Virus record (IMG/VR): IMGVR_UViG_3300044911_000505
Span: 1 to 24,073 of that record
From: a virus
Length of the DNA: 24,073 bases
Direction: 5' to 3' (one strand)
Part shown: one piece after another, positions 9,888-24,073 of the stretch
Layout of the letters: every line of letters begins with the position of its first letter
Position numbering within the stretch: position 1 is the first letter of the stretch
The notes under the pieces: model-generated
The model's database searches: none
Told to the model about the DNA's origin: nothing
Seen by the model: the letters and a program-made list of their open reading frames with translations, nothing else
Translations under genes and position numbers: made by a program

Positions 9888-10390
9888 TTACACTACTCAC
9901 GACCCTTCTATCGTTCTTGGCGGGCGGTTTGCCCAAGCTCCTCGACTTCTTCCAAGACCGGTCGGACAAAGCCCACGAACTCAAGCTCGCCCAGATGCAG
10001 ATTGAGCGGGAACTTGAGTTGCGCAAAGCCGGGTTCGAAGCTCAGGCCCGAGTCGAAGAAATCAGGACGGATCAGCTTCAGGTACAAGCCGAGGTGACCA
10101 CGGCGCAGGTGGCGTTGCAGGAGAAGCAAGCCCTCTACGCGCACGACATTGCCATCGGTGAGGGTGCCAGCCGCTGGGTTATCAACGCCCGTGCCTTGGT
10201 GCGGCCTGTCATTACCTATGGCATGTTCGGCTTGCTGTGCTTCATCAACATGTTTGGTGCAGCTTACGCATGGAAAATCGGTACGCCGTTTGAGACGGTG
10301 CTTGCCAATCTGTGGGACGCTGACACTCAGATCATCTGGGCGTCGATCATCAGTTTCTGGTTTGGTTCTCAAGCCTTCAGCAAAAAGTGA
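9884..10390 (+). CDS. Holin-like protein (3-TM type), 168 aa
   Basis: I chose ATG 9884, which overlaps the preceding TGA, over a TTG at 9875 only 2 bases from GGAG. The sequence has an N-terminal hydrophobic segment (ITLLTTLLSFLAGGLPKLL), a charged coiled coil (DKAHELKLAQMQIERELELR), then two further spans after RALVRPVITYGMFG (LLCFINMFGAAYAW, IIWASIISFWFG). This matches the arrangement of 3-TM holins of the gene-transfer-agent type (Pfam GTA_holin_3TM), including the R-P-V/L-I before the second span. Its position directly upstream of, and overlapping, the lysozyme gene supports the assignment. A holin would open the inner membrane to release the lysozyme. Confidence 0.75.
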   Translation: MITLLTTLLSFLAGGLPKLLDFFQDRSDKAHELKLAQMQIERELELRKAGFEAQARVEEIRTDQLQVQAEVTTAQVALQEKQALYAHDIAIGEGASRWVINARALVRPVITYGMFGLLCFINMFGAAYAWKIGTPFETVLANLWDADTQIIWASIISFWFGSQAFSKK

Positions 10391-16420: not shown

Positions 16421-18451
16421 ATGAACTTTGGGCAACTTCTTGGCGGCGCGGGTGTCGTTGCGCGAGGATTTCGTTCTGCTGAACAAGCGGAACTCGATGC
16501 GCGGCAGAACCAACTGTATATTGAGGAACAAAACCGTTTAGCCGATCTTCGCGCTCAGATGGCGCGGATGGAATTGCCGTCGTTTCAGCCAGCGGGTGCG
16601 CCCGACCTGACGCGCCCCATCGCGCAACTGCAAATCCCTGAAGCACTGCCGCGTTTCGAGGTACCGGCTGCTGCTCCTGAGCCTACGGCACCTACTACCG
16701 ACTGGACGGTCATAAGGGACCCGTTTTCGACTGAGCCGGGGTATGCACCCGCGCGTCCAGCGGCGCCATTCGGGCAGGAGATACCTAATCCGCAAACTAA
16801 TCCGCGCAGGTTTCAGAACCAGCAAGAGGCGATCCGTCTTGCGGAACTGCGTGTTCAGAATCTTGAGACTGGACTACAGCGCCTGACCGAAGGCGGCGCG
16901 TCTCCTTCGCTGATCGATACACAGCGTCGGCGTATTGCCGATGAGCGTCAGCGTGTGGAGAGTCTTCGTTATGGTTTGCAGCGCGTTGCGCCGACCCTGC
17001 GTGTACCGGCTGAAACCGATGCGATGGCGTTGTTCACGCAGCTTGAAGGGCAGTACAACTTGCCCTCGGGTGTGCTCAACGCCGTGATGCTGGCTGAGTC
17101 CGGTGGTCGTCCCGGTCAGACTTCACGTGCCGGAGCGCAGGGCTATTTTCAGTTCATGCCCGCCACCGCACGGCAGTATGGTGTGACGGTCAACGACTTC
17201 GAGTCGGAAGCCAAAGGCGCGGCGCGTTTTCTGGGTGACATGCTCAAGGCTACGAACGGTGATCTGCGCCAAGCCTTGGCAGCGTACAACTGGGGTATCG
17301 GCAACGTCCAGAAGAAGGGCATGGACAAGTTGCCCAAAGAGACGCAGGACTACATCCCGCGTGTGTTGTCGTTCTTGACCCAAGCGCAGGGTGCGGCTTC
17401 GTCTGAGGCGGCAGGACCGCCCGCACCTGCTGCACCTGCTGCACCTGCTGCACCTGCTGCACCTGCTGCACCTGCTGCACGCACCGAACGCGGTGTCGAT
17501 ATGTTTGGGCAACCGACCGAGGTTCAGGTCGGCGTTGTGCCTCCCCGTGGCGTTTCTGCACCTGCACCTGCTGCACCTGCTGCACCTGCTGCGCGTGTCC
17601 CGACGGCTGTCGCTGCTCCCGTACAAGTCAATCCGGCTGCGATCAATCTCGCCAATCCTGAATCGATTCCGTTTGAGCAGCAGCGTCTCAACCAAGTCGC
17701 GCAGCAGCAGATGACGCTTCTTACACGACAGCGGAATGAAGCTGCCCAGCTTGCACAAATCTACCTTCGCAGTGGCACGACGCAAGGGATCGATGCTGCA
17801 ATGCGTCTACGCGGTACGATTGACCAACTCGATGCTGGCATGCTCCAGTTGCAGCAACAAACTCAGCAAGGTCAGACGTATCTGCAAGGGATGCAGGGGC
17901 TGCAAGAGTTCTCACTTGCCAACGATCCGCGCCGGTTGTCGGCAGTGTGGTCGCAGTACGCTGGCGTGCCGGTTGGTATTCAGCCGCGTTCCGATGGCAA
18001 GTTCAACATTATCGTCAACGGGCAGCGCACGAAAGAAGGTGTCGATGCGAGTGACATCGCCAACAGCGCACGTCTTGCCTTCGACCAGACCTACCGCCAA
18101 CAGCAGGCAACAACCGGTGCCACGATGAGCATGAAGCGGTTTGAGTCCCTGCTCAAGCGCGAGGAGACTTACGCCGACAACCAAGCGAAGATGCTCAAAG
18201 ACCTGTTCGTGGAGCAACTCAAAGGCAACATCCAACAGGGTGTCGAGCGCCTGAAACAAATGCGCTACGATGTGAAGCCAAGTGGGGCGGGTGATGGCAC
18301 AATCATCATTACGCCACCCGGTGGCGAGCCGCCGTATGTCTTCAATCCCACGGGGCGCACTATCGAGATCGATGGTGTGAAGATTCAGTCGAACGCTGCG
18401 TATCCGATTTCGGGACTACCGACTTACGGTGGCACTAAGCCCGCGAGGTAA
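16421..18451 (+). CDS. Ejection protein with SLT lytic transglycosylase domain, 676 aa
   Basis: AAGGAGG (16410-16416) precedes ATG 16421. Residues 204-311 are a GH23 soluble-lytic-transglycosylase domain with the catalytic Glu at 226 (NAVMLAESGG), then GAQGYFQFMPATARQYG, AAYNWGIGNVQK (288-299) and a final QDYIPRV. It would cut glycan strands locally so the ejection channel can cross the cell wall, as T7 gp16 and similar proteins do. An N-terminal helical region and a DPFSTEPGYA motif shared with the preceding protein come first. Ala-Pro repeat linkers (residues 335-390) separate the enzyme from a helical C-terminal half (MLQLQQQTQQGQTYLQ; KRFESLLKREETY). Confidence 0.9.
   Translation: MNFGQLLGGAGVVARGFRSAEQAELDARQNQLYIEEQNRLADLRAQMARMELPSFQPAGAPDLTRPIAQLQIPEALPRFEVPAAAPEPTAPTTDWTVIRDPFSTEPGYAPARPAAPFGQEIPNPQTNPRRFQNQQEAIRLAELRVQNLETGLQRLTEGGASPSLIDTQRRRIADERQRVESLRYGLQRVAPTLRVPAETDAMALFTQLEGQYNLPSGVLNAVMLAESGGRPGQTSRAGAQGYFQFMPATARQYGVTVNDFESEAKGAARFLGDMLKATNGDLRQALAAYNWGIGNVQKKGMDKLPKETQDYIPRVLSFLTQAQGAASSEAAGPPAPAAPAAPAAPAAPAAPAARTERGVDMFGQPTEVQVGVVPPRGVSAPAPAAPAAPAARVPTAVAAPVQVNPAAINLANPESIPFEQQRLNQVAQQQMTLLTRQRNEAAQLAQIYLRSGTTQGIDAAMRLRGTIDQLDAGMLQLQQQTQQGQTYLQGMQGLQEFSLANDPRRLSAVWSQYAGVPVGIQPRSDGKFNIIVNGQRTKEGVDASDIANSARLAFDQTYRQQQATTGATMSMKRFESLLKREETYADNQAKMLKDLFVEQLKGNIQQGVERLKQMRYDVKPSGAGDGTIIITPPGGEPPYVFNPTGRTIEIDGVKIQSNAAYPISGLPTYGGTKPAR
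17423..17476 (+). repeat. Six perfect GCACCTGCT repeats (Ala-Pro-Ala linker)
   Basis: Six consecutive copies of the 9-base unit GCACCTGCT encode an Ala-Pro-Ala linker directly after the transglycosylase domain. Perfect identity of the copies suggests recent slippage expansion and predicts length variation between related phages. The same unit recurs downstream at 17558-17590. Confidence 0.95.
17558..17590 (+). repeat. Second GCACCTGCT array
   Basis: A partial unit (GCACCT at 17558-17563) is followed by three perfect GCACCTGCT units (17564-17590), in the same reading frame as the first array. It makes a second Ala-Pro hinge. The 81 bases between the arrays encode a short folded-looking strand segment (GVDMFGQPTEVQVGVVP). 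Confidence 0.92.
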
Positions 18452-18454
18452 TTC

Positions 18455-21400
18455 ATGGCAACAGCAGGACTCTCCTTCGCAAACCCCTTCATGGAAAAGA
18501 TCGGGGTGGGTGAGGAGCCGAACCCGTATGTGCCGTACAGCCCCACGTCAAACATCGGTTTAGGCGGGCTTGCTCCCTCTGCCGCTGACATGGCTGTCAT
18601 GGGGGAAGCTCTGGTCAAACAAAGCCAGTTCACCATGCCGGAGATGCGGCGTCCTCCGGCGATTGCCTTCAGCCCATCCAAGCAGGAGTTGTTCGTCAAC
18701 GGCATCACGTTTGCTGCGGACGATGCTGCTACCGCGCTTCAGTCTGAGTCCTACCTGCGTGGCCCCGGTACGCAACTCCCCTCGGGTGGTGACTGGGTGC
18801 CGCTCGATGAGCAAGCCTATAGCCAGTACCTCCAGTCGATCCGGCAACCTAGCCTCGGGCGTTTGGCGGCTAAATCCTTCGGACGCGGTGTCGATGTCAT
18901 GCAGGCACTGGCTGGGCGTGGCCTTCAGCTTGCCGGTGCCGAGGAGTTGGGCGGTCGCATCGTTGCGGCGCAGGAAGAAGAACTCCGCAAGACCAGTCCC
19001 TACGAACGCATGTTCACCGACATCGAGTCGGGGCGGGGTGCCGTCGAGTGGTTTGTTGCCAACTTCGCGCAGCAAGGCCCGAACCTGATCGAGTCGGTGT
19101 TGACGGCTGGCCTTGGCTATCTGGGAGGAACCGTTACCGGTGGTCCATTGACGGGTGTCGGTGCTGCGCTGGCTGGGCTGATGGGTAAAGCTGCCTTCAA
19201 GGAAGCGGTCATTGCTGCGGCCAAGAAGAAGGCTGCGGGCGAAGTCCTGAACACGGCTGAGAACAAGTTGCTGCGTGAGGCTGCGGGTATTGCCGGGGCC
19301 GTCACGGCGTCGTATGCGCAGAATCTTGCCACTGGTGCGGCTGACATCTATGGTGAAAAGCGTGAGCAGGGTGCGGACGCTGCTGACACTGACGCACGTT
19401 TGGCTGCGTTGGCCGGGTCGATCCCCTACGCATTGATGGAGACGCTACCTGAATATCTTCTGGCGAAAGGTATTTTTGGTGGGGGCACTCGTACTGCCCT
19501 GCCTGCGGGTGCTACTCGTGCTCAACGTGGCGCTGAGTTACTACGGCGTGGCGCAGTGGGTGGTGCAATTGGTGGTCTGGCCGAAGGTATAACGGAACTT
19601 GGGCAAGAAGCGCAGTTACTGTACCAAACCGATCAAGACCTGACTTCGCCCGAGGGCGTCAACCGGCTGATCAATTCGTTCGCGGCAGGCTTTGGCGTGG
19701 GTGGCCCCATTGGAGCGGTTGCCAATCTGCGTAGTCGACAACCTGCAAACCTGCTCGACCCAGCAGGTACAACTGGTCCGACGCCGGGGCGCGAACTTGT
19801 CCCAGTTTCGGGTACCGAGTTCACGGGGTTCCCTCGCGGCGGGTATACACCTGCACCTCCCGGCACGGCAGTGGCTCCGTACTACACGCCGGTCACGCCG
19901 ATGGGGGCAATGCCTACCCCTCCAGAACAACTCGCTGGCGCACCAACTGTACCGCAACTTCCCGGTCCTGTGCAGCCAGTTGTGCCGATGGGTGAACCAG
20001 TGATGATGGTCACGCCGGGTGGTGTGGCTTATCCAGAGCAGATGCTGCGCCAACAGGGCAACGTCCCTCCCGGTGCTCCCGGTACACAGGGTGTGCTCGA
20101 CATCTTTGGTGGTCAGATTCCAGCGCAAGAACTTGCTGCGCGTATGCAGCCTGCCGTCACACCTGCTGCGCCAGCGGCACTGCCCGCGCCCGCCGTTATG
20201 GAAACCCGGCAGGGTGTGCTTCAGTTTGCACCGGCTGCTCCTGCCGCACCGGCACCTACCGCTTTGGGTAACGCGCTACAACAAGTCCTACAACGCCAGC
20301 GCGTGGCCCAACTTCAGCAGCAGCGTGAAGCACAACTTGCCGCGCAGCGTGAGGCCGACCTAGCACGTCTTGCCACTGCTGCCGCTGCACAACGCCAGCT
20401 TGATCTTGCAGCACCGCCGCCCGCCGCACCGATGCCGATGCGACAAGTAGGTCCGACGCAACCCCAGCAGTTGGAGTTGTTCACCCGTCGTCAGGCTCCG
20501 CGCCCCAGTCGTGCCGAGGCTCTGCGTCGTGGTGCGCCCGGTGCCCAGCCGGTGACTGCCCCGGTGGAAGTTCCGCAGACCGCCGCACAACGTCGTGCTC
20601 AGTTGCCGCTGTTCACGCAGGAAGGTCAGCCTTCGGTCGCAGCACTTCGCGCTGCCGGTGTGCGCGGCAAACTGCCGACGCCTACGCTCGAAGCTGGTGC
20701 CGTGCAGGCACCGCCCACGGGCGCACCGGTTACTGCTGTGACTGCTGCTCAGGCTCGGGTTACTGCTGCCGCTAAGGCGGCTCCTACTCGTGGTCTGAAG
20801 AAACAGGCCGGTGTTGCCAAACCCAAGGAGGAAGAACGTGCCGCTAAAGAAGGGAAGCTCAAACAAGGTCGTGTCGCAAAACGTGCGGAAGATAATGCGG
20901 GAGTACGAGCAGGGCGGCAAGCTGGGAAGCAGCCCAAGGCCCAAGTCCCGCCAAGCGGCGCGCCAGCAGGCGGTGGCGGCGTCGCTCTCAAGCGCGGGGC
21001 GCAGCCGAAAGGGCGCGTAATTGATATGACTCAGCGCCGCAAGGCGCAGATTGAGGAAGCCCAAGAGGCAGCAGAAGATATTGCGGATGAGCAGGAGCGG
21101 TTGAATTCGGTCGAGCGCCGTCGCGCTAAGATCAAGGAGAAGTACGGAGCGCGTTTGCAGGCGCTGTGGTCCAAGATACAGACAGTGCCCAAGCTGATGC
21201 GTGAGACTCGGTATCCGAACAGCTTAGAAGCTAGCGAAGTGCGTCGGTTGGCGCAGGAGTTCCAAGGCTACATTGACCGGTACAACAACATCCAGACCGA
21301 GGAGGAGAATTTTAATGTCTTTGAATTCTTCGAGCGGGCAATGGATGAATTCCTACCTGCCGACCTAGCGTCGTTCGACAGACTGTCCGCAGAACTTGCA

Positions 21401-24073
21401 GCACCTAAGAAGGCTAAGGCTCCGGGTAAAGCTGCGCTACTGAAGAAAGCTGAGACTACTCAGGCAGGACGCCAGTGGGCGCAGTACGCAGACCCCGACA
21501 CCCAACCCAAGTGGTCGGAACTCTCCGATGCCCAGAAAGAGCAGTGGCGCAAGGCGGTCATCGACGACCGCAAGCCCAGCATCGCTGCTGCCGAGGAGAT
21601 CGCTCCACCAAAAAAAGCCGAGGCGGCACCAGCCGCCGTCCCCGCCGCCCTTCCTGAGACAGACGCCGAGTTGTTGGCCGATGCCATCCGCAACGCGGAA
21701 GGGGCCACGGATACGCGCAGCTTCAAGGCGGCTATCGCCACGGTGGTCGAGTACGCCTTCTTCGACACCGATCCCAACAACCGCGCACTGGGCGAACAGG
21801 CACGTGCCTTCCTTGCGAACACGCAGTTCAAAGACGGGCAGCAGTCGAGCATCGACGAAGTGTTCTTGGATCAAGCCAACACGAACCTGCAACTTACTGC
21901 CGTTGTCAAAGACAAAGAGCGCCCGTGGTTCACCTACGCGGTGAGCCGTAACCTTGTCCCGAGTCTCACGGCCAAGATCATCAACATGCCTGCGGTCTAC
22001 AAATCGCGGCAGTCGCCTGTCAGTGGTGTGATCGCCACGACCAAGCCGGTGGAGACTACTGCCCAGCAGATGACTGAGACGCCACAGGCCAAGCTGGGTG
22101 AGTTGATCAGCGACTTGATCTCGCAAATCCGCACTGTGTCGGCGCTCAATCAGGAAGTGAAGTTCCGTGGTACGACGTATCCCAACATCGTGGAACTTGC
22201 CAAGGAACTCTATGCCAAGACCGATGCGGCTGGTCGCAAGTACATCGTTCGTGGCTACCCGCTGAGTGAGTACTTCACCGCCAAGGGCGAGCCGAAGATG
22301 CTCAAGTCGGGTGGTCGATTCCTCATCTCTACCAAGGTGCTGTCCACTGCCGAGCAACGCAAACTTGAGCAGGAGCAGAAGGAAGCTGCGAAGGCGCTCG
22401 CTGAGGCCGAAGCTGAGGCCCGTGCTGCCGAGGCTGAACGTGCGCGTCTGGAGAAGGAGGGGTTCCGTGAGGAAGATTCTTGGGATAATGACGACGGTAT
22501 GTTCTATCGTGATGACGGAGCCGAGATTCCGTCCACGGTGCCTATCGGTCGCATCCGGTTACTGGTCCAGAGTTTCCTGAACAAGCTCCGCGCCAAACCC
22601 ACAGTTCACATATACGCCAACGTCGCAGACCTCAAACAACGCAACCCGGAACTCTACGCACGGGCTGCTGCCGCGCGGCAGCAAGGTGATTTTGATACGA
22701 CTAAGGCGGCTGGCTACTCGTTTGGGCAACCCGAAGCCGAAGGCACCTTGCTTACTCGTCGCCAGTTTTTGCGCGGTGTGGGTGCTGCCCTTGGTTCATT
22801 GAATCTACCCAAGCCATCCAAGGAGATGGAACTCAGTCTGCTGACTGATGCGTGGAATGCGTCCATTGAGGTCTACAACGCTTGGTTTAGAACAGCGGCA
22901 AAGTTTGCTCGTACTGAATCCTTGCGCGATTTTGCGCTAGCGCAAGCTGGCACAAACGGTGAAAGCCTGATGGATGTTGCACGAACCAAGAGGTTGCGCG
23001 ACTTCCTCTATAACGTCGAATACAACGAAGCCTATCAAGGTGATGGGTACGACTACGCACTTAGTGAACTGTTAGCAAAAGATGGTGTGTCCGCACTAGC
23101 CGATTTGCATCAGGCTATGCAGCAGATGCGGCAGCAGTTTGTAGATCAGGCGGGACAGACTAAAGACAAGTTCCCCGGTGCGCACGTCATCATCTTCTCC
23201 GACTTCATCCGCACTGAGCAGCAACTGAAGTTTGTCCTTGCGCACGAGACGCTGGGTCACTTTGGTTTCCGGGGTGTTGTCCCCAAGGCCAAGCTCAACG
23301 AGACGCTCAACCGCATCTACGACATCGACCCCACGGTCCAAGCTGGTGTGGATGCCATGCTCGCAGCCAACGAGGGGATGTCCAAGACAGAAGCCATTGA
23401 AGAATTTCTTGCCGATAACGCAGCCGACCTCGACACGTCCATCATCGCTCGCATCTGGAACGTACTGAAGAACTTCCTCAACAAGTTGGGATTCCAGTTC
23501 CAAGACGATGAAGCTCGCTACTTCGTGAACCAAGCGCGGAAGTACGTGCGCCGTGGTGGTACCGGGCAGTTTGTCAGTGCTCGTGCTGTCGTGGGTGACA
23601 TGGAGCAGATGGATCAGGACCGCGACGACGGGCGCTATGCTCGCTATGCCGCTGGTGATCTGGCTTCCAAAGCGTTTGGACTGAGCGGACTGAGCAGACC
23701 CTACAGCGCCACGGGTGGACTGATGGGTGCAGCGCAAGCCTTTACCGACCGCATGTTCGGTGCGCGACGCGATGTGCCGGGGTTGGTGGCGAACCTGCTG
23801 GAGCAACTGCAAACGCTGGACAACAAGGCGCGACGCAGCGACGGACTGAGCCAGATTTACCGTATCTTCGAGAAGCAGCAGCAACTGGCCCGCTCGCTGT
23901 TGTCCAAGTACCAGCGGATGACATCGTTCTCGCATTCGCCGGATGTGGGTTTCTTCGGTGCGGGTGTGTCCGAGCAGGACAAGGAGAAGGCTGGCGAGTT
24001 GTTGGCGCATGCCGCCCTCCTGCGCTCGCAGCAAGTGACCGATGAACTTCTGAAGAAGTACCCTGACCTCGTG
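18455..24073 (+). CDS. Giant polyvalent-type ejection protein, 3' partial (1873+ aa)
   Basis: GAGG (18445-18448) is 6 bases before ATG 18455, and the frame stays open to the window edge. Glycine-rich hydrophobic helices (about 211-250, 375-425) suggest membrane contact. Residues 440-790 are Pro/Ala/Gln-rich with a coiled coil (AQLQQQREAQLAAQREADL) and two L-x-LFT motifs. A charged helical region follows. From about 1385 (KPTVHIYANVADLKQRNPEL) to 1700 lies a peptidase-like region with FVLAHETLGHFGFRG (His 1597, Glu 1598, His 1602) and a downstream AIEEFLAD (Glu 1649/1650). This resembles zincins of polyvalent phage proteins. Residues 1434-1441 are twin-arginine-like. Likely packaged and ejected; substrate unknown. 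Confidence 0.85.
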   Translation, partial: MATAGLSFANPFMEKIGVGEEPNPYVPYSPTSNIGLGGLAPSAADMAVMGEALVKQSQFTMPEMRRPPAIAFSPSKQELFVNGITFAADDAATALQSESYLRGPGTQLPSGGDWVPLDEQAYSQYLQSIRQPSLGRLAAKSFGRGVDVMQALAGRGLQLAGAEELGGRIVAAQEEELRKTSPYERMFTDIESGRGAVEWFVANFAQQGPNLIESVLTAGLGYLGGTVTGGPLTGVGAALAGLMGKAAFKEAVIAAAKKKAAGEVLNTAENKLLREAAGIAGAVTASYAQNLATGAADIYGEKREQGADAADTDARLAALAGSIPYALMETLPEYLLAKGIFGGGTRTALPAGATRAQRGAELLRRGAVGGAIGGLAEGITELGQEAQLLYQTDQDLTSPEGVNRLINSFAAGFGVGGPIGAVANLRSRQPANLLDPAGTTGPTPGRELVPVSGTEFTGFPRGGYTPAPPGTAVAPYYTPVTPMGAMPTPPEQLAGAPTVPQLPGPVQPVVPMGEPVMMVTPGGVAYPEQMLRQQGNVPPGAPGTQGVLDIFGGQIPAQELAARMQPAVTPAAPAALPAPAVMETRQGVLQFAPAAPAAPAPTALGNALQQVLQRQRVAQLQQQREAQLAAQREADLARLATAAAAQRQLDLAAPPPAAPMPMRQVGPTQPQQLELFTRRQAPRPSRAEALRRGAPGAQPVTAPVEVPQTAAQRRAQLPLFTQEGQPSVAALRAAGVRGKLPTPTLEAGAVQAPPTGAPVTAVTAAQARVTAAAKAAPTRGLKKQAGVAKPKEEERAAKEGKLKQGRVAKRAEDNAGVRAGRQAGKQPKAQVPPSGAPAGGGGVALKRGAQPKGRVIDMTQRRKAQIEEAQEAAEDIADEQERLNSVERRRAKIKEKYGARLQALWSKIQTVPKLMRETRYPNSLEASEVRRLAQEFQGYIDRYNNIQTEEENFNVFEFFERAMDEFLPADLASFDRLSAELAAPKKAKAPGKAALLKKAETTQAGRQWAQYADPDTQPKWSELSDAQKEQWRKAVIDDRKPSIAAAEEIAPPKKAEAAPAAVPAALPETDAELLADAIRNAEGATDTRSFKAAIATVVEYAFFDTDPNNRALGEQARAFLANTQFKDGQQSSIDEVFLDQANTNLQLTAVVKDKERPWFTYAVSRNLVPSLTAKIINMPAVYKSRQSPVSGVIATTKPVETTAQQMTETPQAKLGELISDLISQIRTVSALNQEVKFRGTTYPNIVELAKELYAKTDAAGRKYIVRGYPLSEYFTAKGEPKMLKSGGRFLISTKVLSTAEQRKLEQEQKEAAKALAEAEAEARAAEAERARLEKEGFREEDSWDNDDGMFYRDDGAEIPSTVPIGRIRLLVQSFLNKLRAKPTVHIYANVADLKQRNPELYARAAAARQQGDFDTTKAAGYSFGQPEAEGTLLTRRQFLRGVGAALGSLNLPKPSKEMELSLLTDAWNASIEVYNAWFRTAAKFARTESLRDFALAQAGTNGESLMDVARTKRLRDFLYNVEYNEAYQGDGYDYALSELLAKDGVSALADLHQAMQQMRQQFVDQAGQTKDKFPGAHVIIFSDFIRTEQQLKFVLAHETLGHFGFRGVVPKAKLNETLNRIYDIDPTVQAGVDAMLAANEGMSKTEAIEEFLADNAADLDTSIIARIWNVLKNFLNKLGFQFQDDEARYFVNQARKYVRRGGTGQFVSARAVVGDMEQMDQDRDDGRYARYAAGDLASKAFGLSGLSRPYSATGGLMGAAQAFTDRMFGARRDVPGLVANLLEQLQTLDNKARRSDGLSQIYRIFEKQQQLARSLLSKYQRMTSFSHSPDVGFFGAGVSEQDKEKAGELLAHAALLRSQQVTDELLKKYPDLV
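20838..21020 (+). CDS. Nested small basic phage protein inside the giant gene, 60 aa
   Basis: In a different frame from the giant gene, AAGGAGG (20825-20831) lies 6 bases before a GTG at 20838, and the frame ends TAA at 21018-21020. The product starts (M)PLKKGSSNKVVSQNVRKIM and ends QQAVAASLSSAGRSRKGA. I recognise this pattern, 'MPLKKG.S.KV.S.NV' with a final 'QAVA.aLS.AG.SRK', from free-standing small phage proteins. Some may fall under DUF6496, from memory and not verified. The giant frame here codes low-complexity linker, residues 795-856, which could tolerate overprinting. The function of the family is unknown. Confidence 0.75.
   Translation: MPLKKGSSNKVVSQNVRKIMREYEQGGKLGSSPRPKSRQAARQQAVAASLSSAGRSRKGA

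Follow-up and report, generated by a model that had tools for sequence, protein, structure and literature searches.

A putative exchangeable slot for overprinted small genes in the gene of a large polyvalent-like phage protein

Within the window, by which the whole analysed stretch of 24,073 nt is meant (IMG/VR virus record IMGVR_UViG_3300044911_000505), positions 20838-21020 are, as judged from sequence comparison, a genuine overprinted gene, with both its own frame and that of the surrounding giant gene under selection. The linker-coding part of the giant gene is, on comparable grounds, a slot with at least two alternative occupants, the different small basic genes type A (as in the window) and type B, always in the +1 frame; relatives have evidently exchanged the occupant, the giant frame staying open through the slot. 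A probability of about 90% is given to this reading of an overprinted small gene and an exchangeable slot in a large polyvalent protein gene. The function of the small proteins is excluded from this figure, and there are no expression, proteomic or genetic data.

The following features of the window are involved:

16421-18451, + strand: gene directly 5' of the giant ORF, with a transglycosylase SLT domain (PF01464, E=6.5e-16); a virion/ejection context
18455-24073, + strand: giant ORF that hosts the nested gene, coding for a large polyvalent-like protein and continuing past the window end
20792-20818, + strand: giant-frame motif GLKKQAGVA, just 5' of the slot
20825-20831, + strand: AAGGAGG, the Shine-Dalgarno (SD) sequence of the nested gene, 6 nt upstream of its GTG
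20838-21020, + strand: nested type-A gene (phrog_2423-like), GTG start, TAA stop, 60 aa, in the giant's +1 frame
23243-23260, + strand: giant-frame HETLGH motif, resembling by eye that of a metallopeptidase, within the conserved region by which giants were gathered for the unbiased census

The nested gene and its giant host

From its start at 18455, the giant ORF runs without a stop for 1873 codons, as far as the window end; a Pfam search with its product, incomplete at the window end, gave no match. The spacing of the HETLGH motif is HExxxH, unlike the classical HExxH, and no Pfam match was obtained for it. Relatives of the giant have large-polyvalent-type domains, LPD38 in L018 and PLxRFG in L007, which are marks of large polyvalent proteins (Iyer et al. 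2017, PMC5512222); the window's host resembles this class in being a giant gene whose relatives have one or the other domain. The C-terminal part of one giant is related, via L018, to giant proteins of Vibrio, Burkholderia and Stx phages. It is plausible that the giant protein is packaged in the virion and ejected, an inference from gene position and family only, without virion data.

Some further observations concern the window and its giants. An extra segment of ~150 aa including RRQFLRGVGAALGSL (window 22727-23183, giant residues ~1425-1577) is missing from the aligned giants of L002 and L003. At 487-1137, 1134-1817 and 1818-2471, three consecutive genes of 216, 227 and 217 aa look by eye like tandem paralogues, their products starting with MTPNDIITDVR..., MTPANVLDSVR... 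and MTPNDIIVDVR..., respectively. In L270 (2669-14044; the same contig as L093), the giant is split into an 863-codon N-part, other ORFs and then, 3 kb on, a 1897-codon ORF with HETLGH; neither type A nor type B was found in this record.

The coordinates, frame, start and length given for the nested gene in the original prediction are correct: it begins 2383 nt (3x794+1) after the giant ATG at 18455, which places it in the +1 frame, and it is enclosed as a whole by the giant ORF (18455 to 24073). The strong SD claimed for it, AAGGAGG at 6-base spacing, is indeed present at 20825-20831, with a predicted anti-SD pairing of -11.4 kcal/mol that is equalled by 0.1% of the giants' out-of-frame ATG/GTG codons. 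The product has a net charge of +12 (mean of type A, +12.9; of type B, +11.3). It had also been said to match a small basic phage protein at both ends, and this was borne out by a profile match to phrog_2423 over residues 1-21 (E=3.7e-7) and by the alignment of its C-terminal QAVAASLSSAGRS block to QAVAIALSKAGKS in stand-alone members; another type-A member, from L117, matches phrog_2423 over its full length (E=1.9e-9). The low complexity of the giant product where the nested gene overlaps, part of the same prediction, is evident in the giant translation. A Pfam search with the window's nested product gave no match, and Pfam and NCBIfam searches with the nested proteins gave none above cut-off; weak matches to Med26/TFIIS, Ntox50 and similar entries were rejected as chance. 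The predicted structure of type A consists of two helices (mean pLDDT 81), for which Foldseek found nothing with E<0.03 in the PDB and BFVD.

Homologues, the search for which had been proposed as a check, were found both nested and as stand-alone genes. Type A lies inside a giant ORF in 42 IMG/VR records, the window among them, which represent 33 distinct sequences; it is in the +1 frame in all cases, has an ATG or GTG start and, where the 5' end of the giant is present, is found at giant codon ~740-925. The first relative found, L002, encodes a nested protein 80% identical to that of the window. Later searches gave 39 distinct type-A cassettes in ORFs of >=800 codons, all +1 and with 0 giant-frame stops. 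The nested cases all come from metagenome assemblies; the annotated phage collection yielded none, and the type-A relative in Phage DSL-LC04 and the type-B relatives examined there lie outside giant genes. From a scan of a genome collection, two candidates were discarded, since the type-A-like ORF of L169 is stop-broken and not nested and that of L170 is stand-alone.

Stand-alone type A mostly starts at the stop of a ~790-aa gene, either overlapping it or no more than a few bases away. Six of the seven genes tested from this class match the portal family phrog_1216, and one further gene 5' of a stand-alone copy matches portal phrog_156. In Phage DSL-LC04, the type-A relative overlaps the end of the portal gene and precedes the GroES and capsid genes. 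In contrast to the stand-alone members of phrog_2423, the window copy lies inside a giant gene and not behind a portal gene. Stand-alone and nested homologues share the start MPLK. No second type-A copy was found in the records with a nested gene. Because type A is a separate gene elsewhere and the nested genomes have no second copy, the inner gene is the older, widespread one and the giant linker the newer reading. In L105 (2162-2389) and L106 (8136-8489, - strand), stand-alone DUF6496 proteins are encoded ~16 kb 5' of type-B giants; the type-A profile finds these as well, which suggests that type A may belong to a wider superfamily.

Selection on both reading frames

In the overlap, the third codon position of the nested frame is the first of the giant frame, and the giant third position is the nested second. 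Differences between relatives are concentrated at nested third positions, giant third positions being spared. The rate of synonymous differences in the giant frame is 0.075 within the overlap and 0.64-0.66 in the rest of the gene, the strong reduction for which the original prediction had proposed a test. Since the first codon-rate test used pairs picked by similarity in the overlap itself, it was redone with pairs binned by giant N-terminal identity. At 50-70% identity of this N-core, giant third positions differ by 0.62 in the core and 0.13 in the overlap; in the same bin, the nested protein is 0.87 identical and the giant-frame reading of that DNA 0.61. In sliding windows, the deepest or near-deepest synonymous trough lies over the nested gene in most pairs, the exception being one very close pair with little change anywhere.

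The frame equivalent to that of the giant is open in 33/33 nested type-A sequences versus 0/63 stand-alone ones (mean of 4.3 stops), and when the nested protein is recoded with each genome's own codons, it stays open in only ~1%. These counts come from related sequences and are not independent trials; the contrast is complete. The mean SD strength for type A is -7.3 kcal/mol, as compared to -1.9 at other out-of-frame starts; in a second comparison, it is -7.2 for type A and -6.5 for type B against a background of about -2. The inference that both frames are selected rests on the complete open-frame contrast together with the collapse of the giant synonymous rate in the overlap. The sequences show three marks of an overprinted (embedded) gene: two frames that are open more often than chance allows, purifying selection acting on the inner one and start signals of its own. 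A nested frame broken in a slot where the giant frame is kept would have refuted the original prediction; no such case was seen among the type-A slots.

Separately, comparison of L117 and L118 (slot 10001-10177) revealed a nested gene and 120 following codons that are nearly identical, with saturated differences upstream, a pattern that suggests a possible recombination breakpoint at the slot.

A second occupant and its exchange at the slot

Several seemingly empty giants have a synonymous trough at the same place, caused by type B. This is a different small basic gene (MPFKSKAQRR...) with its own SD, in the +1 frame of the same linker, and its product follows the pattern MPFKSKAQRRYLHA..PKLA.EWE.KYP...LPE.VKPSKPK. 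Type-B cassettes were found in ORFs of >=800 codons in 49 distinct versions, all +1 and without a giant-frame stop. Type B is also nested in other giants of up to 3807 codons. Their codon-position pattern and open-frame test agree with those of type A; in stand-alone type B the giant-equivalent frame is open in 12/44, some of whose hosts are perhaps truncated, and some type-B slots have only a weak SD. As a separate gene, type B is found e.g. in phage 023Pt_psg01 between portal-type and GroES genes. The two types are both small, highly basic, start with MP[LF]K and belong to head-module genes elsewhere. Type B matches phrog_1375 weakly (E=0.006), its predicted model is poorer (pTM 0.40), and an hhalign comparison of type A with type B (7-8%) did not establish homology. 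The stand-alone members of phrog_2423, phrog_1375 and DUF6496 that were examined are ordinary separate genes, unlike the nested copies. To our knowledge, no function is known for any of these three families.

Type B was also seen in +1 near the 5' end of a terminase ORF (L189 3222-5324, L191 4578-6680) and of unidentified ~400-codon ORFs (L199, L206, L208, L213, L216, L225, L241, L244, L246, L247, L248 and L251). These were left out of the counts because the true host start may lie downstream of type B.

For a census independent of the small genes, giants were gathered by their conserved C-terminal region, which contains HETLGH. Among 80 loci, 24 hold type A, 31 type B and 16 neither, and nine are truncated before the slot; all A and B copies are in +1. 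Hence 55/71 giants that cover the slot have A or B, and one of the 'neither' loci, L277, proved to have B on inspection, leaving 15/71. Some loci are near-identical, and the numbers are to that extent not independent. Among the 'neither' giants, a third type of cassette was not recognised. Type B was not found in the 33 type-A records (window included), except for two marginal 12-residue matches, nor type A in the type-B records, where only two stand-alone DUF6496-like matches appeared. A tree of giant N-termini, read as several gains and losses of the nested gene, was dropped, since some of its 'none' rows are truncated contigs and most others have type B.

An exchange of A for B distinguishes the members of three independent pairs of relatives. 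In the first, L134 (A) and L090 (B), upstream identity is 90.6% and ends 12 nt into the small gene; it resumes at the last base of the stop codon and is 93.9% over the 9.9 kb that follow. Between these breakpoints lie 180 nt of A versus 171 nt of B. L113 and L090 are near-identical as well, and here too the inner gene is replaced and the giant frame stays open across the slot. The second pair, L160 (A) and L277 (B), is 88-97% identical over ~18 kb, and identity returns ~16 nt short of the end of the stop codon; a frameshift interrupts the L277 giant at a point further 3' of the slot. In the third pair, L006 (with L140 and L008; A) and L262 (B) are 82-85% identical upstream to nt 12 and 87-91% downstream. 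As this downstream identity starts 41-98 nt past the stop, the right breakpoint lies beyond the gene. In L102/L085 the exchanged piece exceeds the small gene as well. Since A and B open with similar bases (about RTGCCNYTCAAAA), a short stretch common to both may contain the left breakpoint.

The linker is variable in general. The giant-frame motif GLKKxAxVA precedes type A (window, L113, L134), type B (L003, L085, L090, L095) and an empty site (L088). The L088 giant, 63% identical in its best segment, has only the flanks and no nested gene, and in comparison with it the nested gene and further linker are an insertion in the window, a point on which the original prediction had called for an alignment of giant homologues. 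Its proposed history, a small gene inserted into the linker with both frames remaining open, therefore stands as regards insertion and open frames; it does not stand as a single insertion, given that type B has replaced type A.

The giants of L018 and L159 have no BLAST similarity to the other giants, yet type A occupies a comparable position in them, with the same frame. This points either to linkers having passed from one giant to another or to divergence that is very deep, and because of it, common descent of all slots is not proven.

Alternative readings, mechanism and significance

That the nested ORF is untranslated, its conservation reflecting selection on the giant linker or on an RNA or DNA element there, seems to us very unlikely. 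Direct proof of translation is lacking and the giant frame is itself under selection to stay open; however, changes at giant first positions that spare giant third positions are the reverse of selection on the giant protein, the same protein with the same start is a separate gene elsewhere, and an unrelated type B replaces type A at the same site, which argues against a conserved element. We give scarcely any credence to the giant being made as two proteins that flank the small gene, the open frame through it being incidental. The low-complexity linker and the few interrupted giants (L270/L093, L277) would fit such an arrangement, but the giant-equivalent frame, closed in every stand-alone type A, is open in all nested A and B, survives recoding in only ~1-2% and remains open despite swaps. 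A negligible chance is likewise left to programmed frameshifting out of the giant frame, whose product would be a truncated giant ending in a basic tail, in place of a separate small protein. Frameshift products are common in phages and the sequence does not exclude one; against it stand the strong SD and ATG/GTG at the nested start, the stand-alone homologues beginning at the same MPLK and the loss of identity between swapped cassettes 12 nt past that start.

A different kind of alternative accepts the small genes and holds that A and B have unrelated jobs in a permissive linker, the swap being neutral recombination in variable DNA. It remains possible, if doubtful: the linker varies anyway, the exchanged piece is larger than the gene in L006/L262 (downstream) and L102/L085, and hhalign does not relate A to B. 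Yet the breakpoints of L134/L090 and L160/L277 lie beside the start and at or within 16 nt of the stop, A and B never occurred together in the records tested, and they resemble each other in size, charge, first residues and head-module location. We consider it fairly probable that the slot is a cassette site at which complete, unrelated small genes are swapped in the same alternate frame, drawn from a dual-frame pool of cassettes selected to be stop-free and sharing an interchangeable job. With such a cassette pool, the host frame would survive because circulating cassettes are selected stop-free in the second frame.

As to mechanism, ribosomes would most likely start at the internal SD on the late mRNA of the giant gene to make the small protein, while others would read through the slot in the giant frame; both products would then be translated late from one mRNA, an inference made without expression data. 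Only tentatively, A and B may be two variants that perform one and the same late role in assembly at the portal vertex, such as nucleic-acid binding or the loading of portal or ejection proteins. This idea comes from gene position and charge only; a shared portal-vertex function would explain why the small gene is found behind a portal gene or inside a probable ejection-protein gene.

Gene E within gene D of phiX174 is an overprinted gene of a small virus, and in most overlaps the inner frame is the newcomer. Type A has in common with this kind of overprinting two functional frames on the same strand; it differs in that the inner protein is old and widespread and the outer linker is the novel frame. 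In small viruses, the de novo protein is usually without remote homologues (PMC8227390). The spanins Rz/Rz1 of lambda are a parallel in form, since one complete small gene lies within a larger phage gene, in its +1 frame; spanin systems also occur as overlapped or separated genes, and no spanin family has both embedded and overlapped or separated members (PMC6139136). Type A shares the embedded +1 arrangement, whereas its proteins and module are others, one family is both embedded and separate, and the embedded gene is exchangeable. Nested genes are not described in the part of the large-polyvalent-protein survey consulted (PMC5512222), and the literature searched (open-licence papers only) held no report of a small gene nested in polyvalent-protein genes or of embedded-gene replacement.

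Embedded genes as such are already known; the new element is the exchangeable slot. It is commonly assumed that an overlap ties two genes to each other, with neither sequence free to change. Here, phages evidently replace one whole partner of the overlap while the other stays readable, and the older gene is the inner one. A family that is both separate and embedded, together with near-identical genomes that have different occupants, makes the question of how genes become embedded directly testable. The small proteins also represent a class of conserved proteins that may be overlooked in annotation, being encoded within giant genes, and two widespread small proteins of unknown function are tied to the portal and (probable) ejection modules.
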